Shown here: positions 7,134 to 23,142 of the stretch, piece after piece
How the letters are laid out: each line of letters opens with the position of its first letter
Position numbering within the stretch: the stretch's first letter is position 1
Virus record (IMG/VR): IMGVR_UViG_3300021519_000057
Location: 1-26,067 of that record
Length of the DNA stretch: 26,067 nt
Source of the DNA: a virus
Direction: 5' to 3' (one strand)
Translations under genes and position numbers: made by a program
The notes under the pieces: generated by a model
The model's database searches: none
Told to the model about the DNA's origin: nothing
Seen by the model: the letters and a program-made list of their open reading frames with translations, nothing else

Positions 7134-7466
7134 CTAACCGTTACGCCAGTTAGTGCCATCTGAAAAAACAGGCAGGAAAATAGAACCCCCGCCAGCAACC
7201 ACAGCCCGGAAAACAGGGGCCGCAGCGGCATCCGTCACGAAGGTCCTAGCCCCCTTGTAGTCGGTGGCAGCCGGTAGGTCCGCAACGACAGAATAGCCAA
7301 TATTGTAGAAGTATTTAGCCGCGTAAGACTGTGCCTGATTTGGCGTCTGAGAGTCTAGCTGGTTAAAGTAAAGCTCTATAACCCGGACTAATTGTCGCAC
7401 GTACTGGGCATCGTAGTCTTGCGGCGGGCCGGGTAGGGGTGAGTGTTTGAAGTTTACTAGGGCCAC
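7134..7466 (-). CDS. Small conserved virion-associated protein
   Basis: 110 aa with a GTG start overlapping the upstream stop (TAGTG). N-terminus VNFKHSPLPGPPQDYDAQYV, RQLVRVIELYFNQLDSQTPN is a recognisable pattern seen after nozzle-type genes in many phages. The C-terminal half (ARTFVTDAAAAPVFRAVVAG, GGSIFLPVFSDGTNWRNG) resembles the short beta segment 'V-D-G-T-x-W' found at the end of phage structural proteins. Function unknown; probably a minor virion protein. Confidence 0.78.
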   Translation of the reverse strand: MALVNFKHSPLPGPPQDYDAQYVRQLVRVIELYFNQLDSQTPNQAQSYAAKYFYNIGYSVVADLPAATDYKGARTFVTDAAAAPVFRAVVAGGGSIFLPVFSDGTNWRNG

Positions 7467-9598
7467 TAGCGTTTACCATCCGGGCGGGCATCAAGACGGA
7501 GGGCACCCAACTGCCACTGGACCCCCAAGGTAGCCGAACTGACTTTCACCGCCATCTGGCGACCCCGGGCACGGATGAAGACCTGCCCTGTATACACACC
7601 AACCGAAGTCTCAATTACCCGCTGGGAATCCGATGCGTCCCCCGAGAACGCCACGCCCGGGAAGTTACGGGGGCGGATTGTAAGCGTAACTTCAGGTTGC
7701 GCTGCGGTAGAAGCTTCAAAACCAATGTCAGTTATAATGCGTCTGGTGAGCATGAACTGCTCCCCGTCTTCGATATCAAAGTCGTTAGACTGGATAGAGC
7801 TTTCCATAGCAATAGTGTCGTCGTTAACGCCGTCTTCGTGGTTATACAAATAGCCCAACGCACCAATAGAACCTGTAATAGTTGTAGTAAGCACAGTCTG
7901 AGATGGGCTGATCTCGTAGGTGCCCGTGCTACCCGTAGTGCCCGTCTTCTGCCCAATGACATAAGTATCCGCAGTCAGGCCATTCCCAGTAAGGACCATG
8001 CCGACCTGTATAGTCCCAGTCACAGCCGTGACGGTTAACGTGGTAGTAGCAATAGACCCAGTGATCGTCGCTGTAACCGGGTCTTCAGCCGTGTTCATTG
8101 CCTGCGGGTACAACCGAAGCGGGGTGTCCAGCCAAGCTGTACGCTCAATACTACCGTAGTACCAAATCTTGTCTGCGTAATTATAGATTACGTACTTGTT
8201 ATTATAGTTAGAGTCTTCGCTGGGGTACATCCACCAGACTTCGTTCCATTGTTCATTAGTACCACAAACAACTTGGTTTGCTTGATTGTAGTTGAGGTTT
8301 TCAAATACGTGGTTACGCAAGGTACAAGCCAGCGTTTCGATACGACCCGTGTACGCATAGAACTTATCTTGACCCATCCAGTAGGTGATATTCGCGGCGC
8401 TAATAGCGGCACGGGGCGAGATAATTGAAATATTGTCTGCGTATTCCTGCAAACTGAACACATCCGTAGTGCCAATAAACTGTAGCGTATAGAGGTGGGT
8501 ATCAGTCCAAACCAAAGTTTCTTGGCGAGTTGGTACGGCGCAAACGATCCGGGAACCACGGGATACCTTCAAGAAACCGGATGAGTTTGTAACATCAGGA
8601 TACCACTGACCGGGTTCATCTTGGTCTGACCAGCGGATAAGGAGCGGGTCAAAGTCGGCAGTGCTAGTACTGCCAAGGGGCACCGCACCAAAAGCAAGGA
8701 CGTGCTTATCTTGCTGAGACACAAGGGTCTGCATGATCTTAACGGGGACAGCGTTAGGGTCGAAACCCCCCGCAGACGCAATAGATTGCAGGGTAACAGC
8801 CCGAGTAGCCAGTGCCGTAGACGGGTCTGCCGTAGCACCGCGAGCCCAGTAGTAAGGTGCACCATTACGGATATTCATAATAAGGTCGTTGTCGAAGTTA
8901 TTGAACCACCAGTCTTCTTGCGGGAGATACACTGCGCCGGTAGTAGAACCGAGACCCCAAGAATCACGCCCCCAGCCGCCGATACCCCAACCATAACCTG
9001 CGGTGGCAATTGCGTTACCGGGTTCAATTTCAAAGTCAATAGTGATAGCCACGCCACCACCCCCTGCCACAGTAGAAGTAGCCGCCGTAGTAACCGGGAA
9101 ATAGAACGAGGTTGCGGAAGTAACAGTAATAAGATGGTTGCCGTTAACTTGAGCATTAGGCACGCCACCAACGGCACCCGTAACACCAGTAACGGTTACA
9201 TAAGACCCGGTAAGCGCGTTGTGCGCAGTGGCAAGGGTGATAACCAGCTTGAAAGACCCAGATACCGTATACACGCAATTATTTGTGTTGGGGTTAGACA
9301 GTGTAGGAACACTAGTACGTAACGGAGTGATATCGTAGTAAATGCCACCAGCTTCGATATAGACCTTCTTCTCAGTACCAAGAGATAGGAAGTCATCGGC
9401 GTAGGTCGTAATCCAAGCCCACATCTGGCGGCACACACCAACAAAGGTATTTGTAGTACCCTTCACCCAGCCACCAAGTTTCTCGGGGTACCCCGAACGA
9501 AAGCGTACCTTCTCGCTCTCGTACCAACCACCCTCACCGGAGTAGTCGGTCTGATCTCGGTTAATACCGGGTCGGAACTGAAGCTTGATAAATGGCAT
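7466..9598 (-). CDS. Large tail hub/nozzle-type structural protein
   Basis: 710 aa from the ATG at 9598, giving [20 protein letters not shown], a conserved start; 26 further in-frame residues upstream overlap the holin gene and are rejected. Early motifs [20 protein letters not shown] and repeated W-rich beta segments ([57 protein letters not shown]) suggest a beta-propeller-like fold comparable to P22 gp10 or nozzle proteins. Two Thr/Gly-rich beta insertions are present (around 9010-9250 and 7868-8076). The C-terminus ([18 protein letters not shown]) is also typical of the family. It probably closes the short tail beneath the adaptor rings. The family is recognised; the exact tail position is inference. 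Confidence 0.8.
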
Positions 9599-9602
9599 GG
9601 GG

Positions 9603-10013
9603 TTACTTCTTGCTAATGGCTTCGGCAACCGATGGCACGATCTTCTCGACTGACCGACCAATAACGTACCCGCCAAGACCCAGTTGCACGATATCCCAGA
9701 GCTTCAGGTACTCAGCTTCTTGCAAGTTAGGCGCAGCAAAGCCAAACCAACGGGCCGTAATCAAGGCGACAAAGACCAGCATGGTAATCGGACGCCAGCT
9801 AGAGGCCAGAAACCCGCCCGCAGCTTCAGTCTTAATGATGTCAGCCGCACCCTTGGCAAGGTCAGTCTGAGCCGCCATAACCGCCAGATCACCCGCTTGG
9901 TACAGGCGCATAAGCTCCAGCTTGGCAGCGTCCTTCTGGGCCGGATCGGGCCACACGCGGTCAATAACTTTGCCACCAATATCAAGAGCGGCTGAGACAG
10001 GATCAAACGACAT
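9603..10013 (-). CDS. GTA-type 3-TM holin family protein
   Basis: 136 aa. The N-terminus ([20 protein letters not shown]) and the helix [20 protein letters not shown] are followed by the hallmark [20 protein letters not shown] (membrane segment about 73-93) and [20 protein letters not shown] with a second hydrophobic stretch (about 105-121) then [15 protein letters not shown]. This matches the holin family named for gene transfer agents (GTA_holin_3TM), common in phages of Alpha- and Betaproteobacteria. It should form membrane lesions that release the endolysin. It lies more than 10 kb of transcription from the main lysis cassette. TTAGGAG precedes the ATG and includes the TAG stop of the adhesin gene. 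Confidence 0.85.
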
Positions 10014-10022
10014 TTATATCTC

Positions 10023-10757
10023 CTAAGACCAAGTAAACTTAACGTAACCACCGGCACCGCTGGCGCCCTGATCACCGGATCCGACGCCGCCATTACCGCC
10101 AGTGCTATAACTACTACCGCCCGTGCCGGGATAACCAGCGCCACCGCCGATGCCAGCATCACCGCTAGTATTGGATACATTGCCGCCAGAAGCCGTTCCA
10201 CCGGCACCACCAGCACCGTCGCCACTGGGGTATCCGCTGTTGCCCGGTTGACCCCCTCCACCAGACATGCTTGAGATCAGGGAGCCGGTGACGGTGGACG
10301 CCACGCCGGTAACGCCGTCTGTATAATTACCACCGCGCCCGACAGCCCAACTCAGGCTCTGCCCGCCGCCACTGGCACTGGCGCTGGTATTGGATTTAGC
10401 ACCGCCGCCACCACCGCCACCGCCGTAATCCTGATCTGCACCAAAATCTCTCGCGCCGTAGCCGCCTGCACCAGCACCGCCCACAATCTCGATGACAATG
10501 GTAGTCGTCCCGCTGGGTACGGTAAACGTGCCAGAACTACTTGTGTAGGTTATTGTGCCGGGTGTGAAAGCAGTCGTGCCATAGAAGTTCTGGATGCTGA
10601 TAGCACCAGAAGACGGGACAGCACCGTAAGTCCCTGACGTTCCGGGCGGGACATAAGACCCACCAGCGTAGTATTCGTCCAAGCCAATGGGGTTTGAACC
10701 ACCAAACTCACCCTGAATATCGCTCAGACTAAGAGGACCACTGCTGGGTAGCGTCAT
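10023..10757 (-). CDS. Glycine-rich tail-fibre tip adhesin
   Basis: 244 aa. The start (TLPSSGPLSLSDIQGEFGGS, NPIGLDEYYAGGSYVPPGTS) is a well-known N-terminus in phage fibre-associated proteins. After a GTFTVPSGTTTIVIEIVGG beta segment, residues about 94-240 are poly-Gly/Ser/Ala (GGGGGGGGAKSN, SMSGGGGQPGNSGYPSGDGA, GGAGYPGTGGSSYSTGG), typical of a polyglycine-II sandwich adhesin as in T-even gp38-like tips. It starts at a TAATG overlap with the S74 fibre, so it likely caps or accompanies that fibre and contacts the receptor. The C-terminal KFTWS is a typical end for these domains. Confidence 0.85.
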   Translation of the reverse strand: MTLPSSGPLSLSDIQGEFGGSNPIGLDEYYAGGSYVPPGTSGTYGAVPSSGAISIQNFYGTTAFTPGTITYTSSSGTFTVPSGTTTIVIEIVGGAGAGGYGARDFGADQDYGGGGGGGGAKSNTSASASGGGQSLSWAVGRGGNYTDGVTGVASTVTGSLISSMSGGGGQPGNSGYPSGDGAGGAGGTASGGNVSNTSGDAGIGGGAGYPGTGGSSYSTGGNGGVGSGDQGASGAGGYVKFTWS

Positions 10758-12823
10758 TAGACGTTGACCTTCGCGCTTAGGGCGTCGATCAGTATCTGCT
10801 GTTCCTTGATGGCCTCAACTAGTAGGGGTACGAGCCGCGCGTAGTCCAGCGTCAGGTACTGCGGGTCAATGGGGGCAGGGGCAATAACTTCGGGCATGAT
10901 AGCCTGAACATCCTGAGCAGACAGACCGACTTCGCGGACGGGTTCATAACCGAGTGCCTGAGCAGTCTCGTTGGCCTCGTAGTAGAAGCCCTTAAGAGAC
11001 ATGACCTTAGCCAGCGCACCGCTGATGTAACCCAGACGGGTCTTCAGGCGATCATCCGAGTAGTAGGCCGTAATGTTGCCTGTAGCCGTAATGGTTGTAG
11101 CCGTAACGGAGCCACCAGACAGGTTAGTGGCTGTGGTAGCTGTAGTAGCAGAGCTGGCACTACCAGCGGAAGTCGCATAGTTAACCGACTGACTGCCAAT
11201 ATTGCTGGACGTAATAAACGAGCCACCCGAAGCCGGGTTGGTGGCGTAGGTAGAGTTAGTCGCGTTAGTGGCGTTAGTGGCGTTGGTAGCGTTGGTAGCG
11301 TTGGTAGCGTTGGTAGCCGTCGTAGCCGTCGCAGCATTACCCGTGCAACTAGCAGACGAACCAGTGACGTTAATACCCCAGTTACCTGAGGCACCCGAAC
11401 CCGTAGTAGACGGCACACCAAGCGCGGACTGCGCCGTGCCCTGCGTCGTACCACCAGTACCACCGTTAGCAACTGGGAGAGTGCCAGACACCTGAGAGGT
11501 CAAGGAAACACCGGAAAGCGTGCCGCCCAGTGTTACGGTACCAGTAGAAGTGATTGTACCACCAGTCAAAGTAATGCCGTTCACACTTCCAGAAGTGGCA
11601 ACAGATGTAACTGTGCCGCCGGTTCCCGTGGCAGCAATAGTAATAGTACCAGCGCCGTTAGTGACTGTAACGCCCGAACCCGCAGTAATAGCCGCACGGG
11701 TGAAACCCGTGCCGTTGCCGATGTCTACGAAGCCGTTGGATGGTGTAGTGGTTAGACCCGTGCCGCCGTTGGCAACTGGCAGAGTGCCAGAAACCTGAGA
11801 GGTTAAGGCAACACCAGAGAGCGTACCGCCTAGGGTCAGGTTGCCAGACGAAGTAACGGTACCAGTCAGCGTGATGCCGTTCACGGTGCCAGCACCGCCG
11901 ACAGATGTAACTGTGCCGCCGGTTCCCGTAGCAGCAATAGTAATAGTACCAGCGCCGTTAGTGACCGTAACGCCCGAACCCGCAGTAATAGCTGCACGGG
12001 TGAAGCCCGTGCCGTTGCCGATGTCTACAAACCCGTTGGATGGTGTAGTGGTTAGACCCGTGCCGCCGTTGGCGACAGCCACCGTACCTGTAACATTGGC
12101 AGCATTGCCCGTGATATTACCGGTAATATTAGCCCCGCTTATGGTCGTGGACGCAGACAGTGGGCTTGTCCCGTTGCCATAAACATAGCCAGTCAGCGTA
12201 GTAGCACCCGTGCCGCCGTTAGCAACTGGGAGTGTGCCAGAGACACCAGTGGTCAGAGAGACACCCGTGCAGTTAGCCAAGTTACCGGAAGTGGGGGTGC
12301 CAAGGAGCGGGGTAGTAAACGACGGACTAGTGGACAGGACAGTGTTACCCGTCCCAGTAGAAGTCGTAACACCCGTACCGCCGCTAGCCACCGGAAGGGC
12401 CGCACCAAGGGTCAGCGAAGTCAAGTAGGTGGTCGCGTCTACGACGTTCGTGCCGTCATTGTAGACCCACATGGTCTTGCCAGCAGGGACCGCAGTGCCC
12501 GTGCCGCTGGCGTTCTTTACGGTGATTGCGTCGGCGCAACCGTTCTTGACGATGTAGACCTTCTCAATAGCGGGAACTATCAAGTTCTGTGCACCGCCCG
12601 AAGTGCCGATCAGGTTAAGACGCAGGTTACGCGCCGTCTGGGTTGCGTTCGTATCCGTCAACGTCAGGGTAACCGTGGCACTAGCAAAAGTTACATCTGC
12701 CGACCCAACGATAGCCTCTTCAATGGCTGTGCCTAGGTTAACATTGGTAACGTTGCCCCACGTGGTGGTGTTCTCACCCGTGGTCATCAACTGGAGTTTT
12801 AAGGTACTGTAGGTACTAGCCAT
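10757..12823 (-). CDS. Large tail fibre with anchor domain, tandem repeats and S74 chaperone
   Basis: 688 aa. Residues 1-150 (STYSTLKLQLMTTGENTTTW, GNVTNVNLGTAIEEAIVGSA ... VPAGKTMWVYNDGTNVVDAT) form the same anchor domain as in 16825-18633. The shaft is made of VANGGTGLTTT / FTRAAITAGSGVTVTNGAG / TLSGVALTSQVSGTLPVANG segments, with a tandem 100-residue duplication and a later run of A-T-N triplets. The S74 domain fills the last 100 residues: Ser589 in SDDRLK, GFYYEANETAQALGYEP, VREVGLSAQDVQAIMPEVIA, LDYARLVPLLVEAIKEQQ, ending in a short coiled coil. It probably trimerises and recognises the host surface. TAATG overlap with the downstream Gly-rich adhesin suggests they are made together. Confidence 0.9.
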   Translation of the reverse strand: MASTYSTLKLQLMTTGENTTTWGNVTNVNLGTAIEEAIVGSADVTFASATVTLTLTDTNATQTARNLRLNLIGTSGGAQNLIVPAIEKVYIVKNGCADAITVKNASGTGTAVPAGKTMWVYNDGTNVVDATTYLTSLTLGAALPVASGGTGVTTSTGTGNTVLSTSPSFTTPLLGTPTSGNLANCTGVSLTTGVSGTLPVANGGTGATTLTGYVYGNGTSPLSASTTISGANITGNITGNAANVTGTVAVANGGTGLTTTPSNGFVDIGNGTGFTRAAITAGSGVTVTNGAGTITIAATGTGGTVTSVGGAGTVNGITLTGTVTSSGNLTLGGTLSGVALTSQVSGTLPVANGGTGLTTTPSNGFVDIGNGTGFTRAAITAGSGVTVTNGAGTITIAATGTGGTVTSVATSGSVNGITLTGGTITSTGTVTLGGTLSGVSLTSQVSGTLPVANGGTGGTTQGTAQSALGVPSTTGSGASGNWGINVTGSSASCTGNAATATTATNATNATNATNATNATNATNSTYATNPASGGSFITSSNIGSQSVNYATSAGSASSATTATTATNLSGGSVTATTITATGNITAYYSDDRLKTRLGYISGALAKVMSLKGFYYEANETAQALGYEPVREVGLSAQDVQAIMPEVIAPAPIDPQYLTLDYARLVPLLVEAIKEQQILIDALSAKVNV
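11253..11317 (-). repeat. 9-nt tandem microrepeat encoding (Thr-Asn-Ala)n
   Basis: Plus-strand GTTGGTAGC/GTTAGTGGC units repeat about seven times, encoding A-T-N tripeptides in the fibre shaft. Unit length is a multiple of 3, so slippage would change fibre length without a frameshift. Confidence 0.8.
11461..12073 (-). repeat. Tandem ~300-nt duplication within fibre gene
   Basis: Bases 11601-11773 and 11901-12073 are exactly 300 nt apart and differ at about 6 of 173 positions; flanking parts of the unit (from about 11461 and 11761) are more diverged. The frame is kept (100 codons). Confidence 0.85.
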
Positions 12824-12832
12824 TTCCGGTCC

Positions 12833-13792
12833 TTACGTGGGAATCTCTACCCAAGTGACTGTGTTTCCATCGTTTACTTGCACCCAAGTGCTCGTCTGAG
12901 AGTCATCTATGGTCTGCCAGCTCGGCGTCTGATTATCGTTGATTATACCCCAAACTAGCACGCTTGTGATATAGCCAGTAGCCTGAACTCCGGTGGGGAA
13001 GACGTTAGCCTTGCCCGTAATAGTTACGGTGCCTATAGACCCAGTGGCCGAGACCCCGGTAACGGAGACGTTCACCCCAAGACTAAGGGTAACTGTACCA
13101 ACAGACCCAGTGGCCGAGACCCCAGTTAGGGTGACGTTACTCTTGCCTTGGACCGTAGCAGTACCGGTAGACGCAGTAGCCGAGACCCCAGTGGGGAAGA
13201 CGTTGGCCTTGGCAATGGTAGTTACCGTGCCTACAGACCCAGTGGCCGAGACCCCGGTAACTACAACAACTTCGTTTTCGTCTACCTCGACAGTGCCTAT
13301 AGACCCAGTGGCCGAGACCCCAGTGGGGAAGACGTTTGCCTTGGCCTGAACCGTAGCAGTCCCAATAAACCCAGTGGCCGAGACCCCAGTAGGGGTGACG
13401 TTTGCCTTGGCCCGAACTGTAACTGTGCCTACGGAACCAGTGGCCGAGACCCCAGTAACGGTAGTGTTTGCCTTGGCCTGAACTGTAACTGTGCCTACGG
13501 AACCAGTGGCCGAGACCCCGGTAACGGAGACGTTCACCCCAAGACTAAGGGTAACTGTACCAACAGACCCAGTGGCTGAGACCCCAGTGACGTTGGTATT
13601 TGCAGCTGCCTGAACGGTAACTGTGCCTATGGAGCTGACAGCCGAAACGCCAGTTACTGTAACGTTTGCAATGGCTTGGACGGTAACGGTGCCAATAGAC
13701 CCAACGGCCTCGACTCCAGTTACGGCTACTTGAACGGATGTAGAGCCAGAACCCGCAAAGGTATCTGCCGCAAAGGGGAAAAAACCGAACAA
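12833..13792 (-). CDS. Repeat protein with twelve 22-residue TGVSATG units and Trp-repeat C-terminus
   Basis: 319 aa from a TTG start at 13792, supported by AGAGGGGG 5 nt upstream. A short head (FGFFPFAADTFAGSGST) is followed by twelve tandem 22-aa units (residues 22-285) of the form V-x-x-TGVSATGSVGTVTV-x-x-x-AN, then a 34-residue tail with three 11-residue Trp repeats ending WVEIPT. The repeats should form stacked beta strands. Its tail is homologous to that of the protein at 18643-19281, and like it this gene sits just upstream of an anchored S74 fibre. Proteins with TGVSATG repeats are common but uncharacterised in aquatic phages. A fibre-associated structural role is inferred. Confidence 0.75.
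   Translation of the reverse strand: MFGFFPFAADTFAGSGSTSVQVAVTGVEAVGSIGTVTVQAIANVTVTGVSAVSSIGTVTVQAAANTNVTGVSATGSVGTVTLSLGVNVSVTGVSATGSVGTVTVQAKANTTVTGVSATGSVGTVTVRAKANVTPTGVSATGFIGTATVQAKANVFPTGVSATGSIGTVEVDENEVVVVTGVSATGSVGTVTTIAKANVFPTGVSATASTGTATVQGKSNVTLTGVSATGSVGTVTLSLGVNVSVTGVSATGSIGTVTITGKANVFPTGVQATGYITSVLVWGIINDNQTPSWQTIDDSQTSTWVQVNDGNTVTWVEIPT
12836..12952 (-). repeat. 11-residue Trp repeats (3 copies), second locus
   Basis: Residues 281-319: WGIINDNQTPS, WQTIDDSQTST, WVQVNDGNTVT, then WVEIPT; homologous to 18646-18762. Confidence 0.8.
12938..13729 (-). repeat. Twelve tandem 66-nt repeats
   Basis: Each unit encodes 22 residues with TGV-x-A at its core. Bases 13041-13114 and 13503-13576 are identical over 74 nt, exactly seven units (462 nt) apart, a sign of recent unit exchange or duplication. 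Confidence 0.92.
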
Positions 13793-13797
13793 TTTAG

Positions 13798-13805
13798 CCC
13801 CCTCT
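13798..13805 (-). promoter_or_regulatory. Ribosome binding site supporting a TTG start
   Basis: Minus-strand AGAGGGGG, then CTAAA, then TTG at 13792-13790. No closer ATG exists in this frame, so this site decides the start of the 319-aa repeat protein. Confidence 0.6.
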
Positions 13806-13807
13806 GG

Positions 13808-14269
13808 TTAGGTGTTCAGGCCCGGGGTGTATACCATTTTGCCGCCTACGACGGTAGCGGTTAGTGTTGCTTTGCGGTTGTCATAGACTTTGTAGCTGAC
13901 ATGGACCCACCCGCTGTTGAGTTGAGCCTTGCGGTAGCACTCTAGGATGACCTGATCGAAGTCTAGGTTAGCGACGATCCAAGCCGCCAAGTCCCCGTTA
14001 GGCACCCCGGGCACTTCGATATCTGCCGCCTGACCCAGACAGTGTTGCGAAGTAGACGCACCCCCAACGGCCTTATTCAGGTCAGGGCAACGGTAGCCTG
14101 AGTTAATAAAGACGGGCCCGTAGTGGGCACGGACAGGCTCTAGTACCTGTTCGCATAGCTCTTTGAGACAGTCCAGCTCGGCGGCACCGGGCACGTTGTC
14201 AATGCCCAGCCGGTCCCCGGTCTGAGACTTGGTAAGTTCCTCAAGGTCAAAGTGCTGGGTTAGCTGCAT
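13808..14269 (-). CDS. Peptidase M15A (murein endopeptidase / D,D-peptidase)
   Basis: 153 aa. N-terminal QHFDLEELTKSQTGDRLGI and NVPGAAELDCLKELCEQVLE lead into FINSGYRCPDLNKAVGG. Zinc ligands are visible as His76 and Asp83 (SQHCLGQAADIEV) and His123 (SGWVHVSYK), with a candidate catalytic acid Glu110 (QVILECYR). This is the M15A family layout; members cleave peptide cross-links or D-Ala bonds in peptidoglycan. No signal peptide. It could be a second lysis enzyme or a virion-borne cell-wall hydrolase; position among fibre genes and beside a secreted protein leaves both open. Confidence 0.88.
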   Translation of the reverse strand: MQLTQHFDLEELTKSQTGDRLGIDNVPGAAELDCLKELCEQVLEPVRAHYGPVFINSGYRCPDLNKAVGGASTSQHCLGQAADIEVPGVPNGDLAAWIVANLDFDQVILECYRKAQLNSGWVHVSYKVYDNRKATLTATVVGGKMVYTPGLNT

Positions 14270-14271
14270 GG

Positions 14272-14814
14272 CTACGGGAAATTACCACCAACCGGGTTCG
14301 GGAAGCCTTCAGGAGCCGCAGTGCCGATCTTAGCACCCGGAGGAACGGTGGTCGATGTCCACGGGCTTTCGTTCATGGGGCCTACGCAGTCGGCCAAGGT
14401 CGCGCCGTTTACTGGCTTGGGGCGTACTGTGCAGATCATCGACCACATATTGGAGAACCCGCCACCCGGCTTAGACGTGCTGGTAAAGGTGCGGACCACG
14501 ACGGCGGTGGGTGCCCACGTCGGAGCGACGGGGTAGGTTGTGGCGTTACTGAACAAGGACCAGACCTTGCCCTTGGGGGCCTTACAGGAGCCGTTCATCA
14601 AGCTCAGGTCAGCAATGCTGGCACCCTTGAGGACTGGACATACTGAGACACCCATAGGGAACGTGTTGCCGTTAACCTTTACCGTCTTACCGGGTACCGC
14701 CACCGTCGCACTGGAGGCGCAGAGGGCATAGGGCGTATGGCATATCGCCAAGGAGGGCGAGGCGTCAGCCGGGGTCGCGGCGAGAAGGGCTAGGACGATC
14801 AGGGTCTTTTTCAT
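14272..14814 (-). CDS. Secreted, six-cysteine hypothetical protein
   Basis: 180 aa with a clear Sec signal peptide: MKKT, hydrophobic LIVLALLAATPADA, probable signal peptidase I site after Ala18 (ADA-S). The mature part has six Cys (25, 32, 59, 77, 128, 143), likely three disulfides, and beta-prone segments (ATVAVPGKTVKVNG, APTAVVVRTFTSTS). It ends proline/glycine-rich (GFPNPVGGNFP). Export to the periplasm or beyond is unusual for a gene in a phage fibre region. Possible roles are host-envelope modification, superinfection exclusion or a virion protein maturing outside the cytoplasm; none can be chosen from sequence. It is coupled by ATGA to the upstream gene and is 2 nt from the M15A peptidase gene. 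Confidence 0.78.
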   Translation of the reverse strand: MKKTLIVLALLAATPADASPSLAICHTPYALCASSATVAVPGKTVKVNGNTFPMGVSVCPVLKGASIADLSLMNGSCKAPKGKVWSLFSNATTYPVAPTWAPTAVVVRTFTSTSKPGGGFSNMWSMICTVRPKPVNGATLADCVGPMNESPWTSTTVPPGAKIGTAAPEGFPNPVGGNFP

Positions 14815-14954
14815 ACAGCTTCCGGGGCAGGGTTAACCTGCGGCGCGGCCTGCTTCTGGATTTCGGCAATTACTGGGGCAACCGTGATGTAGGGGGCATT
14901 GCCCAGTGCCTGCATGATGACGTTGATCTGTTCGATAGTGAGTTCGAGGTTCAT
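14811..14954 (-). CDS. Tiny conserved phage protein (47 aa)
   Basis: MNLELTIEQINVIMQALGNA followed by PYITVAPVIAEIQKQAAPQV and NPAPEAV. It begins at a TAATG overlap with the DUF7936-like gene and its TGA overlaps the next ATG (ATGA, 14814-14811), accounting for all of the intervening DNA. Two short amphipathic helices (LTIEQINVIMQALG; APVIAEIQKQA) are predicted. Such small proteins with an L-x-L-T-x-E-x-[IV]-N-x-[IV]-[ML]-QAL pattern are frequent in phages near fibre genes; role unknown. Confidence 0.7.
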   Translation of the reverse strand: MNLELTIEQINVIMQALGNAPYITVAPVIAEIQKQAAPQVNPAPEAV

Positions 14955-15277
14955 TAAACGCTCCAAGGTAGGGGTGGGGTTACGACAGGGGGATTTACCT
15001 GATTGGCAATGCTAGTGGCAAGCGAGGCCTCTGTGGTCGCCTGATCGACGCCGTTGGCCCAGACCCAGCCCTGTACCTGATTTTCCGTCAGATCGGCATA
15101 CGGGGTGTAGGGGTCACCGGCAACGTAGGGGACGCTCACGGTGCCGTACTGGGTGGCATTAAAGGTGCCGTCCGTGGCGTTGCAGCGCCAGCCTACCGTG
15201 AAGACAACATCCGTCTCGCCTTCGGCCTGTGGGTAGCAGGACATATATTCGACAAGCCATGTGTATGTGTTAGCCAT
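14954..15277 (-). CDS. DUF7936-like phage protein
   Basis: 107 aa: TYTWLVEYMSCYPQAEGETD, VVFTVGWRCNATDG, YTPYADLTENQVQGWVWANG, then SLATSIANQVNPPVVTPPLP. The YADLTE-x-QV-x-GWV pattern and the proline-rich end fit the small DUF7936 family that commonly follows fibre or tail genes in phages. Function unknown; association with fibres is by position. Start and stop both form TAATG overlaps with neighbours. Confidence 0.8.
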   Translation of the reverse strand: MANTYTWLVEYMSCYPQAEGETDVVFTVGWRCNATDGTFNATQYGTVSVPYVAGDPYTPYADLTENQVQGWVWANGVDQATTEASLATSIANQVNPPVVTPPLPWSV

Positions 15278-16824
15278 TACTTATTCTCCAGTGCTGCGAG
15301 GCGGGCTTCCAGCGTTTCGATCCGTTCCAAGGCTTCGCCCAAGGCTTTGACGGCCTTCATGTAAACAATGGATGATTTGACAGACAAAGTTACTTCGCCC
15401 GTTTCTTTCCTTGTCTCTGGGTCAATATCGTTATTTTCTTCAACCAAACCGGGGCTTATTTTCTGCAAGTCTTGTGCAATGAAGCCAAGCAACAACGGGC
15501 CGGTTGGATCGTTCTTAAAACGATATTTCGACATAGAAGCGGCAATGGTTTTGATGTCGTCCCATTGCGATTTCGCCGGTACAATATCCTGTTTTAGCTT
15601 TAGGTCAGAAATAGTTCCGTAAGAACCATTGGTGTTTAGGGCGTTCCCGTTAGACGCGACAGAAAAAGCAAGTGTTCCGGCAGAGCCAGAAGTGGAAGAA
15701 TTATAACAAGCAAACATCGCTGATGCACCAGCGGCACTATAAGTAGATACATATAGTGTTGGTACGGCACCACGGTTTTGCGCCCAAAGAGCGGGACCAC
15801 CCCCGCTAACAGATATTGTGCTATGGTCGCCGGTAAATGGGGTTGAAATCCCCACCAGCAAATTGCCGCTGGCGTCGATGCGGGCGGCTTCGACAATAGT
15901 AGCACTATTACCCGCCGTGCCAGATGGAGCATTGTACCAAATATGATTTTGGGTTCCGACCTGATAAACAGTGCCGTAATCTGTATTGATATATTTATAG
16001 TTTGTTCCATCGTAATAAAGATTGCCGTAAATTAGCGCAGCGCCAGAATTTTTAGAACCACCAATGCCGCCGCCGATGCCGAATTGTATTGAAGGATAAT
16101 TAGCGCCCCACGCATTTGGCGATAGGCCGATGCCGAGGTTGCCAGCGGAAGTAAGCGTCATGCGGTCCGCAGAATTACCAAAGAACGTCAGATTATTAGA
16201 ACTGGTCGGCTGGTATATGATCCAGTCCGTGCCGCTTGTACCGCCGCTTAGCTGGAACGCCACCTGCCCGGTGGATTGCGTAGCCCTGCTCGAATATATG
16301 TACGAATTTCCAGATGCCGGGGCGAGCGTTATGGATGCGCCGGTAACGCCCAGAGTGCTAGAGAACGTAGCCGCAGCGCCGGTCAGGGTGCCCGAAAAGG
16401 TCGCATTGCGGCTTGTGTCGAAGGCAAGCATGTTGCCAACGCCATTCATTGCGATGGTAAATGCCTTCGCGTTGCCCGCGTAAATGTAGCCGGTATCGTC
16501 GTAGATGATCTGGTGGTGGTTGGTGCCAGCGCCAGTGAAGGTAAGGCCGCCACTCCACGAAGATTGAGCGCCGGTCAGGGTGCCGGTGAGTGTTGGTGAA
16601 GCAGACAGCACCATATTACCAGTGCCGGTAACTGCATTGGAAAGCGTCACGCCGCCGTAGGTGAGTGCGCCGCCAAGCGTAGACGCGCCACTAGCGCCAA
16701 AGGTACCAGTCACATCCAGTGTGCGCGTAGGACTAGCGTTAGCCACACCGATGCGGGTGTTGGTCGTATCCGGCGTCAGCACATCAACAAGCTGGCCTAA
16801 CTTTGTCGTGAGGTTCGCTACCAT
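15277..16824 (-). CDS. Second S74 tail fibre, without the anchor domain
   Basis: 515 aa beginning immediately after the previous stop. It lacks the TYS...GEN..TWG anchor; instead a short start (ANLTTKLGQLVDVLTPDTTN) leads to TRIGVANASPTRTLDVTGTF, a motif common in the shafts of S74 fibres. The body is Gly/Ser/Thr-rich beta (GNLGIGLSPNAWGANYPSIQ, AARIDASGNLLVGISTPF). The S74 domain covers the last 110 residues: Ser406 in SDLKLK, then YRFKNDPTGPLLLGFIAQDL, QKISPGLVEENNDIDPETR and a coiled coil (ALERIETLEARLAALENK). The central DNA near 15600-16050 is visibly more AT-rich than its neighbours, suggesting recent exchange. It may attach to another fibre instead of the tail (inference). The stop overlaps the next ATG (TAATG). 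Confidence 0.88.
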   Translation of the reverse strand: MVANLTTKLGQLVDVLTPDTTNTRIGVANASPTRTLDVTGTFGASGASTLGGALTYGGVTLSNAVTGTGNMVLSASPTLTGTLTGAQSSWSGGLTFTGAGTNHHQIIYDDTGYIYAGNAKAFTIAMNGVGNMLAFDTSRNATFSGTLTGAAATFSSTLGVTGASITLAPASGNSYIYSSRATQSTGQVAFQLSGGTSGTDWIIYQPTSSNNLTFFGNSADRMTLTSAGNLGIGLSPNAWGANYPSIQFGIGGGIGGSKNSGAALIYGNLYYDGTNYKYINTDYGTVYQVGTQNHIWYNAPSGTAGNSATIVEAARIDASGNLLVGISTPFTGDHSTISVSGGGPALWAQNRGAVPTLYVSTYSAAGASAMFACYNSSTSGSAGTLAFSVASNGNALNTNGSYGTISDLKLKQDIVPAKSQWDDIKTIAASMSKYRFKNDPTGPLLLGFIAQDLQKISPGLVEENNDIDPETRKETGEVTLSVKSSIVYMKAVKALGEALERIETLEARLAALENK

Positions 16825-18633
16825 TTATTTAGCTTCCAGTGCAGCTAGGCGGGTGGTGAGATCGTCGATGATTTTGTACAGGTCTTTGACGCCCCATAGA
16901 GAGAGATAGGCCATTGGCTCAGACGGGGCTTGCCACTTATCTGTTTCCTTTTCTGGACGCGCAAAACCAAACTGTTCGCCCAAGACGCCATAGGCTTGCT
17001 GCGCCCTTACACCAAAGCCGCGATGCGGTGTCCCGGCCTTGGTGAAATCGTCGTAAACGTCGAAGTCGCCAAGCCACACATCAGAAATCATCTGGCGCTT
17101 ATCCGACTGAACAATACCTTCCCAATCTTTCAGGCGTTCATCAGAAGTCGCGCTATATGTCGTGATGGAGCCGTTGTTGATGATGCTACCGCCAGTGCCG
17201 CCAGTGAAATTGGCGTAATAATAGTTGCCACCATTAGAGACTGCGTTCCCATTGATAGTATATCCACCTGCGCCGATATTTGATGCCGAGAACGTTCCTA
17301 TACCGTTTGTGACACATGAGATTGCGCCCGCGCCCGCGTTCGTCGTGGTGCCGACAAGGAAGCTGCCGTCAGTGCCGAAGCGGGCTTTTTCTGCGCTGTT
17401 GATGGTGAAATAAATAGGCTGTGCCGTGCCAGTTTCCAACGTCAGGCCACCAGCGCCGCCCGCATAAAGCATCGTGCCATTGGCGCGAACGGTGCCGGAA
17501 CTGTTCCCGGTGCCGAACTGCATAATCTGACCGGCACTCGTCCCATTCGACACGATAAGCCGAGACGATGCGGAAGCGCCTGCATCGCTGTTGGTAATCT
17601 TTATGGCCGAAAACGTATTTTGGTTCTGCGTAATATCCAGCACAAGGACCGGCGTCATGCCGATGCCGAGAAGGCCGCCCTGCGTCAGGCGCATTACTTC
17701 AGTGCCAGTTGCCTTGAACAGAAGCGGGAGGGCGCTACCAAAATCAATGTCGGCATTGCCTGTCGTATCTACACCGAAGAACGCACCGTTGGTTGATCCC
17801 GCGCCCGTGTTCGAGTTGCCTGCTTGGAACCCAGACTTTGTAGAGCCGGACGTATAGGCCAAGAAATTAAAGTTTGGTAGGTTGCCACCCGAAACACCGA
17901 AGCCGGTAGCTGTGAGGTTTGCAACAAGACCGCCACTGACGTTGAACATGAAGCCGGGGCCGTTGGGGTAGCCGCCAATGATTTCAGCGTACTTGGAACC
18001 TGCGGCGTAAAACCCAAGACTTGCAGAGGTGCCGCCACCGGAGCCAGCATTCTTTGCCGAAAGAACTTCAATGTTCGCGGCGTTTGAAGTTTGCGTGGCA
18101 ACTACTGTTCCGCTAAAATTAGCCGCAGCGCCGGTCAGGGTGCCGGTGACGCCAAGAGTGCTGCTGAAGGTACCGGTAGTACCGGAAAAAGCGCCGCCCA
18201 GCGTCAAAGCCCCAAGCCAATCAATGGCCTGCACGAAGTTGGTGCCGTCGCAATAGACAAAAGCCTTGTTGCCGTTTGGTACCGTAATACCCGTACCAGA
18301 CGAGCCGATAACCCGGATGGACTGGCTACCAGAAGTGGCGTTGTAGACTAGGTAAGTCTTGCCTGCGCGAAGGGGGCAGATGAGGTCACGGGTCGCCGTG
18401 AGCGAGCCAACCGACGTGCAGTTGAGGATGTAGTAGCGCCCAGTGCTGTCTACGCCATCCGTAATGGAGATGGTCAGGTTGGCGTCGGAAGTAAAGCTGG
18501 CCGTGGTACGCCCGCAGATGGAGGATTCAATAAGCGGGGAAAGGTTGGTGTTGGTCGTAGTGCCCCAAGTACCGGAGTTTTCCCCCGTAGCCATCAAGGC
18601 AAAACCTAATGTTGAAGAATATGTGGTAGCCAT
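16825..18633 (-). CDS. Tail fibre with N-terminal anchor domain and S74 intramolecular chaperone
   Basis: 602 aa. Residues 1-150 (TTYSSTLGFALMATGENSGT, WGTTTNTNLSPLIESSI ... VPNGNKAFVYCDGTNFVQAI) match the N-terminal domain also seen in the fibre at 10757-12823 and probably attach the fibre to the tail. The middle is Gly/Thr/Ala-rich beta structure (TGTFSSTLGVTGTLTGA repeats). The last 106 residues are a peptidase S74 chaperone: the autocleavage motif S-D-E-R-L-K starts at Ser497, then GFGVRAQQAYGVLGEQFG and a terminal coiled coil (LYKIIDDLTTRLAALEAK). Such domains fold the trimer and are then released. TTAGGAG precedes the ATG. Directly followed by another S74 fibre. Confidence 0.88.
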   Translation of the reverse strand: MATTYSSTLGFALMATGENSGTWGTTTNTNLSPLIESSICGRTTASFTSDANLTISITDGVDSTGRYYILNCTSVGSLTATRDLICPLRAGKTYLVYNATSGSQSIRVIGSSGTGITVPNGNKAFVYCDGTNFVQAIDWLGALTLGGAFSGTTGTFSSTLGVTGTLTGAAANFSGTVVATQTSNAANIEVLSAKNAGSGGGTSASLGFYAAGSKYAEIIGGYPNGPGFMFNVSGGLVANLTATGFGVSGGNLPNFNFLAYTSGSTKSGFQAGNSNTGAGSTNGAFFGVDTTGNADIDFGSALPLLFKATGTEVMRLTQGGLLGIGMTPVLVLDITQNQNTFSAIKITNSDAGASASSRLIVSNGTSAGQIMQFGTGNSSGTVRANGTMLYAGGAGGLTLETGTAQPIYFTINSAEKARFGTDGSFLVGTTTNAGAGAISCVTNGIGTFSASNIGAGGYTINGNAVSNGGNYYYANFTGGTGGSIINNGSITTYSATSDERLKDWEGIVQSDKRQMISDVWLGDFDVYDDFTKAGTPHRGFGVRAQQAYGVLGEQFGFARPEKETDKWQAPSEPMAYLSLWGVKDLYKIIDDLTTRLAALEAK

Positions 18634-18642
18634 AGTTAACTC

Positions 18643-19281
18643 CTAAGTCGGTATTTCGGTCCAAACAGTGGTTTCGCTGTCATCCACCAAGGTCCATACA
18701 GGCGTCTGAGTATCTGTTATTGGGACCCAAACAGGGGTCTGGGACTCGTCAATAACGCTCCAAACCATTACTGACCCAACATACCCATACCCTACTACGC
18801 CTGTAACGAAAACGCTAACAGATACTGCAACTACCATAGCCTGTCCAAGAGGCTGGGTCTGCGTACGGGGCAGAATTGGTAGGGGGTTCGGCCAGTTGGT
18901 TTGGAAGAAGGGCGGCTGCAGCCCGGGTAGCTCTAGGGTCTCCCCCAGAGGCTGTGTCTGCGTACGAGGTAGAATTGGTAGGGGGTTCGGCCAGTTGGTT
19001 TGGAAGAATGGGTATATAGTCTCTTCTTCGAGACTCTGCCCCAGAGGCTGGGTCTGCGTACGGGGTAGTATGGGTAGGGGGTTAGGCCAGTCCGTCTTGT
19101 TAAACGGAAGGCGGTCTTGCCCAATAAGTATGTTGCGAACACCCAGAGGCTGGGTCTGCGTACGGGGTAATATGGGTAGGGGGTTAGGCCAATCGTTCTG
19201 AGCGTTGGGGGTACCCGCGCCACCAAAAGAGTTAGCGCCCCAAGTAAGATCGCCCCAAGTTGTTAAACCATACGGGGTCAT
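18643..19281 (-). CDS. Repeat protein with WPNPLPILPRTQTQPLG units and Trp-repeat C-terminus
   Basis: 212 aa in three parts. Residues 1-30 (TTWGDLTWGANSFGGAGTPN) are a short head. Residues 31-147 carry four copies of WPNPLPILPRTQTQPLG spaced 32-34 residues. Residues about 155-212 end in three 11-residue repeats of the form W-x-x-[IV]-x-D-x-x-T-x-x (WSVIDESQTPV, WVPITDTQTPV, WTLVDDSETTV) and WTEIPT. The last ~56 residues align with the C-terminus of the protein at 12833-13792, so the two are modular paralogues. Both directly precede an anchored S74 fibre. A structural role in fibre attachment or tail decoration is inferred; no enzyme motif is present. The TAG stop is embedded in the next gene's ribosome site. 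Confidence 0.75.
   Translation of the reverse strand: MTPYGLTTWGDLTWGANSFGGAGTPNAQNDWPNPLPILPRTQTQPLGVRNILIGQDRLPFNKTDWPNPLPILPRTQTQPLGQSLEEETIYPFFQTNWPNPLPILPRTQTQPLGETLELPGLQPPFFQTNWPNPLPILPRTQTQPLGQAMVVAVSVSVFVTGVVGYGYVGSVMVWSVIDESQTPVWVPITDTQTPVWTLVDDSETTVWTEIPT
18646..18762 (-). repeat. 11-residue Trp repeats (3 copies) at protein C-terminus
   Basis: Residues 174-212: three 11-aa units beginning with Trp and containing an Asp-x-x-Thr core, then WTEIPT. A homologous array lies at 12836-12952. Confidence 0.8.
18844..19191 (-). repeat. Four 51-nt repeats encoding WPNPLPILPRTQTQPLG
   Basis: Copies at 18844-18894, 18943-18993, 19039-19089 and 19141-19191, with start-to-start distances of 99, 96 and 102 nt (all multiples of 3). 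The peptide is identical in all four while codons differ at several third positions, which points to selection on the protein sequence. Spacers vary in sequence. Confidence 0.9.
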
Positions 19282-20017: not shown

Positions 20018-20368
20018 TTAGCTCCTAAAAATAAGGGGGGAAAACAAATCAACCGGCTTATCGCTTCCCACTACAGCGTCAGCAAGGGCCTGAATAGGCC
20101 GACAATCTCCAATAACCGTACAGGGGTCACACACATACTTGTGGCACTTAGAGCAGTGCCCCCGGGTACGGGTACGATCCGGATTCATGACTACCACAGT
20201 ACCACAATGGGCGCAAGAACGAGTACCCAGTTCTAGCTTAGTACCTTCAGGCACTAGAGGGACCAGATGACCTAGCTTGCGAAGCCTGTCCCTATCCGCT
20301 TCCGAGATGCCGGGGGAGGCCCGGTGGTCAATTAAGAGGTACCCCTCCATGTCCTTCTGCAGCCGCAT
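20018..20368 (-). CDS. Zinc-ribbon phage protein
   Basis: 116 aa starting at a TAATG overlap with the endolysin gene. The N-terminus (EGYLLIDHRASPGI) is a well-known signature of a small phage family. Three CxxC pairs follow: Cys52/Cys55 (SCAHCG), Cys72/Cys75 (HCSKCH) and Cys80/Cys83 (VCDPCT), enough for one or two zinc sites. Function unknown; homologues normally lie in structural regions of phage genomes. Position right after lysis genes probably reflects shared late expression rather than a lysis role. Confidence 0.8.
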   Translation of the reverse strand: MRLQKDMEGYLLIDHRASPGISEADRDRLRKLGHLVPLVPEGTKLELGTRSCAHCGTVVVMNPDRTRTRGHCSKCHKYVCDPCTVIGDCRPIQALADAVVGSDKPVDLFSPLIFRS

Positions 20369-20886
20369 TAACTCTCCACAACAAGCTTTTTAGCTTCTTT
20401 TTCCACTGCTTCAACCCGGGTTTTCCAACCCTCCCCGAAAGTCTTCCAAGTCGAAAGCGACTCTAAGAAGGCCAAACGGACAGTAGTGTAAGAAGAAATT
20501 AGGGGGATAGTAGCATGGTGGGCAATGGCTCCCAAGGTCATAGGGCCGATCCTCCCATCCATAGGCATACCCAGAGCATCTTGAAGCAGTTTGACTGCTT
20601 GGGAAGGGCCTGAATTAACACAAGTATCAAAAAGGCAGTGGTCAAGACCAGCGGGAAGATCATCCCCATGAATGGCGTCCCAGTACCGGGCCTTGTATAA
20701 TGGTTCTACCACAGCAGGTGTAAGAGCCCGTATATCGGTTTCAGTGACCGGGTGACCTTTGAAAATCTCCCAAGTCTTTTTGGTAACCCCCAGATTGGTC
20801 ATACCGCCCGGGTCTTTGGGGTGGTTAACGAAGCCCCCCTCGTGGGCGAGGAGAAGCTTAAAAGAGTGAACGAACGTGTCTTTCAT
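20368..20886 (-). CDS. Endolysin: GH108 N-acetylmuramidase
   Basis: 172 aa. The N-terminus (FKLLLAHEGGFVNHPKDPGG, then MTNLGVTKKTWE) carries the HEGG motif with the expected catalytic Glu16 and the DPGG-x-TN-x-G-T signature of glycoside hydrolase family 108. The C-terminal half (CVNSGPSQAVKLLQDALGM, DGRIGPMTLGAIAHH) matches the peptidoglycan-binding domain usually paired with GH108. It hydrolyses the glycan strand of peptidoglycan. There is no signal peptide or SAR segment, so it should accumulate in the cytoplasm and depend on a holin. It sits between the tail-anchored coiled-coil protein (ATGA overlap) and a zinc-ribbon protein (TAATG overlap). Confidence 0.92.
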   Translation of the reverse strand: MKDTFVHSFKLLLAHEGGFVNHPKDPGGMTNLGVTKKTWEIFKGHPVTETDIRALTPAVVEPLYKARYWDAIHGDDLPAGLDHCLFDTCVNSGPSQAVKLLQDALGMPMDGRIGPMTLGAIAHHATIPLISSYTTVRLAFLESLSTWKTFGEGWKTRVEAVEKEAKKLVVES

Positions 20887-21992: not shown

Positions 21993-22475
21993 TTATGCGA
22001 ACTGTAGGATCGCAGTGTTGTAAACCGGGGCGGGTAGGATAATGGTAAAGTTGCCACCAAGAGCAACCTTGTCAGAGCCAAAGTCTAGGACAGCAACCGA
22101 AGGGTTGGTAAGGGCTGCACCTGCGTTATCATACGCCTTAGGCGTAGAGTTATAGATCAGTGCGCCGCGCGCGGTAATAGTCGTACCCGCCCAAGTAGGG
22201 TCAGAGAAGTCTACCCAGCCAACTCCAGTGGTGGTGGTCAACGAGGAGGTAGTTACCCCGAGGTTAGTAAGAGCTGTGCCACCAGCAGTATACCCAGTGC
22301 CTACTACTTCCCCGGTAGCTGTATACGCCGTGGTGTTTGCATCCAGTGATGCTAGCGAAGTGTATAACGCAATCTTAAAAATGCTTGCCCCTGACTGCGC
22401 GGACGGGCGGAAATCGTGGACACCCAGCAAGGCTTGAGCCTTAAACGAGGAAGTCATGACTTGAATGATAGCCAT
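21993..22475 (-). CDS. Putative virion structural protein (beta-rich)
   Basis: 160 aa. Pattern FKAQALLGVHDFRPS, FKIALYTSLASLDANTTAYT, EVVGTGYTAGGTALTNLGV, ARGALIYNS and VAVLDFGSDK is a common phage protein family found beside adaptor and tail genes. It is predicted all-beta and Thr/Gly/Ala-rich, consistent with a virion surface or decoration role, but no precise function is known. Start supported by GAGGTAGGCAA-ATG, the TGA of the preceding gene contributing to the ribosome site. Confidence 0.7.
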   Translation of the reverse strand: MAIIQVMTSSFKAQALLGVHDFRPSAQSGASIFKIALYTSLASLDANTTAYTATGEVVGTGYTAGGTALTNLGVTTSSLTTTTGVGWVDFSDPTWAGTTITARGALIYNSTPKAYDNAGAALTNPSVAVLDFGSDKVALGGNFTIILPAPVYNTAILQFA

Positions 22476-22479
22476 TTGC

Positions 22480-23142
22480 CTACCTCACTGGATACCGGAC
22501 CTGCTCGGTCCTATACATGTCCTGCCGATTTTTACCTTCAGCAAAGCTCTTCAGCATGACCATGGCGGAGTCAAACTGCTTCTGGTACTGGGCCATAACG
22601 TCGGCCTCGCTTTTCATGAAGGTAGCTGCCTCAAGTAGAGCGCCATACAAAAGAACACTGCTGAAGTTATCCCCAAGCCACGTAGTAGAAGCTGTTACAA
22701 TGGACGTAGGGTAGTAGAAATAATGAAGCTCCATCGTGTAGGCGGCATCGGGGGTCGGACCTAGAAGGTACGAGTTCTGGTCAAACATCGCGTAATGCGT
22801 GGGCACACCGGTAGTCGCTGGAAACGGAAAAGCTTCACGGATGTAATTCACATCCTTGTTCAGTAAGAAAGAATACGACCCCGTGATTGGGTCAACACAG
22901 GCCAACGAGAAGTTAGCCAGCCAGTCAGAGGGGACGGTAAGGTACTTGTTGCTAGCTGTGGTCGTGCCAGTCACGTTCTTCCGTAGGTCAAGAAGCTGGA
23001 TGTTGTTATAAATCCTCTGCTCTGACTGTTGGACAAACGTGCTAATCTGTTCCGCAGAGGTAAGATCGCCCGACCCCTCCGTGTCCGGAAAGTCGTTCTC
23101 GCAATATGCCTTGATGGTGTTTACGAGAGTTGCGTAGTTCAC
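22480..23142 (-). CDS. Phage adaptor protein (head-tail connector ring)
   Basis: 220 aa with a GTG start coupled to the upstream stop by GTGA. N-terminal helices (NYATLVNTIKAYCENDF, then SAEQISTFVQQSEQRIYNNI) and a central block (YLTVPSDWLANFSLACVDP, THYAMFDQNSYLLGPTPDAA, YTMELHYFYYPTSI) are characteristic of the SU10-type phage adaptor family; the C-terminus (LLYGALLEAATFMKSEADV, AQYQKQFDSAMVMLKSFAE) is a long helix pair. Such proteins form a ring below the portal and dock the nozzle or tail tube. This is one of the most recognisable structural genes in the window. Confidence 0.85.
   Translation of the reverse strand: MNYATLVNTIKAYCENDFPDTEGSGDLTSAEQISTFVQQSEQRIYNNIQLLDLRKNVTGTTTASNKYLTVPSDWLANFSLACVDPITGSYSFLLNKDVNYIREAFPFPATTGVPTHYAMFDQNSYLLGPTPDAAYTMELHYFYYPTSIVTASTTWLGDNFSSVLLYGALLEAATFMKSEADVMAQYQKQFDSAMVMLKSFAEGKNRQDMYRTEQVRYPVR

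Follow-up and report, generated by a model that had tools for sequence, protein, structure and literature searches.

The window analysed here is the whole 26,067-nt stretch of the IMG/VR virus record IMGVR_UViG_3300021519_000057, a 26-kb viral fragment with podovirus-like tail genes, all of which are encoded on the minus strand, as are the adaptor, PHROG 644, shaft, fibre and nozzle features given below. An earlier sequence-only reading had singled out, with no strand stated, two open reading frames of this strand, named here proteins A and B, as halves of a repeated gene module. A head–tail adaptor (22480..23142; Pfam SU10_adaptor, E=6e-25) places both modules in the tail operon. It is followed by a PHROG 644 protein (21993..22475), which lies directly upstream of a fibre in relatives that have no Trp-array protein at that place. 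A nozzle-like tail protein of PHROG 3287 is encoded at 7466..9676. Two different endolysins (peptidase M15, glycoside hydrolase 108) are found within this one tail operon, at 13808-14269 and 20368-20886. Beside the former, at 14272-14814, lies a 180-aa protein with a signal-peptide-like N-terminus and no family match, which is 94-98% identical in relatives versus only ~60-83% for the tail genes, pointing to a recent transfer.

Protein A (18643..19281) comprises 212 residues, as defined by translation, genome search and alignment. A motif scan places its N-terminal head, YGLTTWGDLTWGANSFG, at 19222..19272, with aromatic–Gly pairs recurring at a period of five residues. The translated body consists of four WPNPLPILPRTQTQPLG repeats with approximate limits (18844..19191). 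The C-terminal region, delimited by search and alignment (18646..18837), contains one TGV-like unit and an array of four Trp residues (W174, 185, 196 and 207), ending in WTEIPT. After a 9-nt gap (18634..18642), the gene of fibre A (602 aa; 16825..18633) begins, followed by that of a second fibre-like protein (515 aa; 15277..16824) with a C-terminal Peptidase_S74 chaperone domain. Protein B (319 aa; 12833..13792) starts with TTG, the start codon being ATG in relatives. The same kind of scan located its head, FGFFPFAADTFA, at 13754..13789; the body is built of TGV repeats of ~22 residues, and the C-terminal region (12836..13027, by search and alignment) holds the last TGV unit and W281, 292, 303 and 314, with the end WVEIPT. 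A further 9-nt gap (12824..12832) leads to fibre B (688 aa; 10757..12823), which also carries a C-terminal Peptidase_S74 domain.

Both fibres begin with an N-domain of the same class, termed TYS in this analysis, where the name VLADR was also coined for a second class (MALVLADRVKETT...). In fibre B this domain (12419..12823) was modelled as an N-terminal peptide, a helix (residues ~22-39) and an XD1-like sandwich. In fibre A, residues 1-135 (18229..18633) comprise the TYS..GEN..TWG..TN.N peptide, with a helix and an XD1-like β-sandwich predicted from the fibre B model.

An alignment of the C-termini of A and B spans 64 residues and scores 170, where shuffled sequences reach at most 58, and the genome search recovers the match at 46% identity across 63 aa (E=1.5e-14). 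About 56 common residues with three Trp repeats had been claimed at first; the sharing and the EIPT end hold, whereas the shared part is larger, at 63-64 residues, and each tail has four Trp spaced by exactly 11. As had been noted, the central repeats are unrelated, since a body-only alignment scores 35, below the shuffle maximum of 41. The fibres had been described as starting within ~10 nt and sharing an anchor domain, which agrees with ATGs at 18633 (A) and 12823 (B), each exactly 9 nt past the shaft stop, and with N-domains that are homologous (alignment score 235). At the DNA level only ~49 nt of A and B can be aligned, which argues that the C-terminal likeness is old. Missed by that reading was a further common element, the N-terminal motif [FWY][GANS]xxx[FWY][GANS]xxx[FWY][GANS], present as YGLTTWGDLTWGANSFGG in A and as FGFFPFAADTFAG in B.

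Relatives were taken from IMG/VR by single-sequence queries with protein B, protein A and the tail of one relative. The head motif, three pairs of an aromatic and a small residue at period five, occurs in 71 of 87 distinct N-termini, versus 0.1% of shuffles. A period-5 aromatic–Gly motif like that of the shaft heads is also found at residues 230-241 of the nozzle-like protein (window 8954-8989), and many nozzle homologues, in relatives and in HTVC023P and HTVC027P, carry it at a similar place; it may represent a second aromatic dock. Separately, in myophages, some proteins whose genes immediately precede those of fibres with a related N-domain (L142:2845-3522, which is Bcep781 gp32 of the DUF2612 family, L145 and L143) contain WGQAPFY or FNQAPFY, akin to the shaft heads YAQAPFA and WGQVPWG.

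The Trp array is borne by unrelated-looking bodies, namely the TGV repeats of B, the WPNPLPILPRTQTQPLG repeats of A (WPNP), the ASD/NEFA type (L149-L167) and the L228 and L246 types. These types were assigned by inspection, as BLAST clustering merged nearly all bodies because their low-complexity repeats match one another. The spacing between Trp residues is 11 in 431 of ~480 pairs, and the shaft C-terminus falls at a constant phase, shortly past W-x-x-[ILV]. Among the 87 representatives, arrays have 2 (18 proteins), 3 (12), 4 (35), 5 (1) or 6 (20) Trp, with a single Trp in one; none larger than six was seen. Since sizes are mostly even (2, 4, 6), pairs of 22 residues, about one TGV period, appear to be the main growth step.

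The association between array and fibre extends well beyond the window. For 62 distinct C-termini with a Trp array the sequence reaches far enough downstream to judge, and in 60 of them a fibre start lies within ~20 nt (51 TYS and 9 VLADR). The 61st (L035) is followed by a TYS-like start overlooked by the search pattern, and in the last (L022) another shaft protein comes next, and then a fibre. The direct linkage in viral metagenomes is thus 61 of 62, and the proposed two-gene module proves widely conserved, its linkage being near-total as counted by Trp array and common as counted by fibre domain. The finding that the earlier reading had named as refuting it, an absence of conserved linkage, was therefore not borne out. 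In L022 (5390-6040) the shafts stand in tandem: the first ends in a Trp array and its stop overlaps the GTG start of a second protein that has the head motif and its own Trp array, which suggests either chain building or a frameshift.

Reverse ascertainment, with loci gathered by the fibre domains alone, found a Trp-ended open reading frame upstream of 88 TYS and 70 VLADR distinct starts, counts from a script pattern that include a handful of false positives. In these loci, the gene immediately before the fibre ends in a Trp array for most VLADR starts and for over half of the TYS starts. The other fibres of both classes come after PHROG 644, an endolysin, another fibre or other genes, and the isolates CRP-901, CRP-902 and MinM2 have a TYS fibre and lack a Trp-array gene. 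Linkage is near-total in one direction and partial in the other; the array therefore needs an adjoining fibre, whereas the fibre does not need the array, and any dock it forms is not obligatory.

Other genes also occupy the position before these fibres. In many phages that have no array protein there, the PHROG 644 protein (window 21993-22475; L137, L274, L309, L310) directly precedes a fibre of either class, in many cases with the C-terminal AIIRIA, and it is possibly another fibre dock. In L263 and L270 a different Trp-rich protein (SWVLDEQTCLW...YQWDEDSTAWIE) lies directly before TYS fibres and is perhaps an analogous connector. In L166, L188, L205 and others, a Trp-array shaft is followed by a VLADR protein of ~150-210 aa and then a TYS-like fibre, with 9-nt gaps; these are perhaps three consecutive subunits of one appendage.

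The end of the array differs with the class of the next fibre. After removal of tails more than 80% identical within one class, the tail ends exactly five residues past the last Trp in 42 of 51 TYS-linked proteins and in none of the 38 VLADR-linked ones, which end 6-8 residues past it. Nine of the 51 TYS-linked tails break this rule; the Fisher p of 7e-17 is indicative only, as it ignores shared ancestry. Within the TGV-bodied proteins alone, the five-residue ending is found in 32/35 TYS-linked versus 0/29 VLADR-linked tails. In L254 the inner repeats are VLADR-like, the last repeat is of TYS type and the fibre is TYS. Because the few residues past the last Trp differ before TYS and VLADR fibres, they probably help to set which fibre class fits. 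A mirror-tree test in the TYS class found tail and fibre-domain distances nearly uncorrelated (r=0.11, p=0.10) and gave no sign of fine residue-level co-evolution between tail and fibre. As judged from these distances, tails and fibres appear to reassort within the class, and plain hitch-hiking is weakened as a cause of the class match. A tail length that tracks fibre class, combined with such reassortment, supports a fibre dock separable from its shaft.

It had been proposed that the module was duplicated and then diversified. A recent duplication of A and B within this genome is ruled out by the fibre tree and by synteny, and in-genome duplication as such is not supported. A tree built on the TYS domains separates fibre A, together with one close relative, from 47 others, fibre B among them, at a support of 98/96; A and B are not each other's nearest relatives. 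The syntenic relatives (G004, G007, G009 and G013) have B alone, in the order adaptor, small gene, PHROG 644, one fibre (often VLADR), DUF7936 and further genes, then B, fibre B, a glycine-rich protein and the nozzle. In their first fibre slot there is one fibre, where the window has A, fibre A and the second fibre. Another relative (G001) carries A and its fibre but lacks B, and 28 of 29 other records tested contain a single TYS domain. By tree and synteny, B is the resident module before the nozzle gene, and A was acquired or diverged long ago.

In the AlphaFold2 prediction, the TYS fibre N-domain opens with an N-terminal peptide, in which a Trp near residue 22 is conserved, and continues with a helix and then a β-sandwich. 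Its structural matches are CpaA (Z 5.5), TSP4 (5.4), StcE (4.6), gp10 (4.1) and gp9 (3.7), every Z being below 8. The same proteins, TSP4, T4 gp9, T4 gp10, CpaA and StcE, are named in a published XD1 comparison (PMC8825819). A structure search with the VLADR domain (VIA-align) gave only middling and unrelated matches. Monomers in which shaft and fibre were fused (70 and 59 sequences, four-residue linker), built on fused readthrough references, showed no interface, a result that says little either way. In these models the fibre domains were folded, and the Trp array had a pLDDT of ~42-65.

A structural precedent exists for docking through spaced Trp residues. In the fibre-dock loop of the SU10 nozzle, Trp 839, 847 and 857 adopt a pseudo-threefold arrangement, each packed on Ile24 of one short-tail-fibre chain; the trimer is formed by gp16, whose Tyr23-Ile24-Tyr25 clamp the dock chain (PMC9509320). 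Because of this precedent and of the XD1-like matches of the fibre N-domain, a single-chain Trp dock is proposed. A and B would be shaft or adaptor proteins of tail appendages, whose C-terminal Trp array docks the trimer of the next-encoded fibre, a reading to which we give a probability of about 60%. The aromatic–Gly head would anchor the shaft protein to the tail, the variable repeat body would act as a spacer, and the array, reaching the exact C-terminus, would serve as a dock in which one chain receives the N-terminal peptides of a putatively trimeric fibre. On this view, the Trp dock that SU10 has in its nozzle would here have moved to the C-terminal end of a shaft. Before the nozzle gene, B and fibre B would fill the place of the short fibre; after the adaptor, A and fibre A would fill that of the long fibre. 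For the fibre-adaptor pair suggested at the outset, the adaptor or docking role is the best-supported interpretation. The sequences directly show the shared ends, the linkage, the C-terminal length code, the portability between bodies and the synteny, whereas a place in the virion, a trimeric fibre and physical docking are inferred. Against the dock stand the even array sizes (2, 4, 6), which a simple dock of three Trp per trimer does not predict, as well as the nine TYS-linked tails that break the length rule, the fibres of both classes that lack an array protein, the fused-monomer models with their low-confidence array and the lack of sequence similarity to the SU10 dock.

Four other explanations have to be weighed. 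Shaft and fibre could act independently of each other, as receptor-binding or decoration proteins carried along in one host-range cassette, with an array that does not bind the fibre. The two genes do sit where the tail region is variable, and they are moved block by block; both fibre classes occur without the shaft protein, and the fused-monomer models predict no interface. Nevertheless, this explanation is rather unlikely, given that the C-terminal length tracks the downstream fibre class even inside one body type, that tail and anchor reassort within the TYS class and that the array is kept on unrelated-looking bodies.

The array could instead be the tip by which the repeat protein binds carbohydrate or a surface; sugar-binding modules often have repeats rich in Trp together with Asp, Asn, Gln and Thr. 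We regard this as improbable, because copy number is low, never above six, the array stands at a fixed phase at the very C-terminus with an ending that tracks the next gene, and no lectin family was matched. It is very improbable that the conserved stretch is a DNA recombination linker for swaps of fibre modules: there are variable modules on either side of a conserved boundary, but the DNA of A and B aligns over only ~49 nt, yet the Trp spacing, a protein feature, is kept. The weakest explanation, that shaft and fibre are made as one protein through stop-codon readthrough, draws on the in-frame 9-nt gap of both window copies and many relatives, and is excluded as a general mechanism by the common out-of-frame gaps of 8, 10 and 11 nt and by a second in-frame stop in the gap of L018, L019, L055, L076, L081, L082, L227, most of L149-L167, L170, L172, L193 and L201.

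A fuller scheme of the docking, put forward tentatively as a possibility, is that the period-5 aromatic–Gly head, which also occurs inside the nozzle, plugs the shaft into the tail, that the period-11 Trp array, grown mostly in pairs, takes the next fibre, and that the residues past the last Trp code for its class, making these proteins interchangeable connectors of environmental podoviruses. More generally, many uncultured short-tailed phages pair a repetitive shaft protein of this kind with a tail fibre as the almost invariable next gene, and this pattern suggests that the array is the socket of the fibre.

The closest known system is that of SU10, a Kuravirus. SU10 and the window share a SU10-type adaptor and the operon order adaptor, fibre, lysis, fibre and nozzle; in SU10 the first of these fibres is the long one, encoded by two genes, and the second is the short one. 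Both have one chain with spaced Trp residues (8-11 residues apart in SU10) and a fibre gene adjoining that of the docking protein. In contrast, the SU10 dock is a loop inside the nozzle with three Trp, whereas the window array forms the C-terminal end of a repeat protein of its own, encoded ahead of the fibre, and arrays of this type have 2-6 Trp spaced by 11 residues. Since the array is not in a nozzle loop, it can only be said to work like the SU10 dock; BLASTP of SU10 gp17 against the window proteins gave no meaningful match, and there is no sequence likeness to the SU10 dock. With its modest Z scores, the fibre N-domain appears to resemble the XD1 of CBA120 TSP4, G7C gp66 and T4 gp9/gp10, which are trimeric base or connector proteins that carry other fibres, with TSP4 and gp10 binding their partner spikes by XD2/XD3 jellyroll domains (PMC8825819). 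In A and B no Pfam, PHROG or NCBIfam match to such a jellyroll was found.

A second likeness concerns two-subunit long fibres. The long-tail-fibre proteins gp34-gp37 of T4 are successive proximal and distal subunits joined end to end. The SU10 proteins gp12 and gp13 are likewise proximal and distal subunits encoded in succession and joined end to end (PMC9509320), as proposed here for shaft and fibre. The order adaptor, proximal, distal is found in L245 (PHROG 644, shaft, fibre) and, with a VLADR protein in between, in L018, L020 and L027. What sets the present pair apart from these long fibres is a proximal part that is short and repetitive and ends in a Trp array, an ending that recurs on bodies that look unrelated and ahead of fibres of both classes.

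Profiles of the Trp array, the fibre N-domain and PHROG 644 retrieved nothing credible from PDB sequences, and the Trp-array proteins have no Pfam, PHROG, NCBIfam or PDB match, apart from one NCBIfam match for A far below the cut-off. A literature search for Trp repeats with fibre adaptors, covering openly readable papers, found no description. Trp-based fibre docking is already known; what appears undescribed is an array that is portable, sits at the C-terminus of interchangeable shafts and has an ending that fits the fibre class. How phages exchange fibres while keeping the joint intact is a central question for host range and the way it evolves. Should the array be the socket, it would be a swappable connector for host-recognition parts, and the Trp-based dock, so far known from one nozzle protein, would also be a portable C-terminal module. 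Sequence alone would then suffice to recognise such a joint in hundreds of phages, freshwater and marine, that have not been cultured.

Finally, the same gene pair is present in isolate or complete genomes, as gp68-gp69 of HTVC023P, gp68-gp69 of HTVC027P and WJZ48131-WJZ48130 of DSL-LC04. The pair is annotated there as a hypothetical protein and a tail protein, the latter in DSL-LC04 being an S74-type chaperone-domain protein; in the two HTVC phages the tails have diverged, their Trp being fewer or irregular. The isolate HTVC023P (W02; 35786-36241 and 44994-46367) has both a VLADR fibre that follows PHROG 644 and a TYS fibre paired with a divergent Trp-array shaft. If the proposed docking is true, the hypothetical proteins HTVC023P gp68 and DSL-LC04 WJZ48131 would gain a function, and the fibre that each of them mounts could be predicted.
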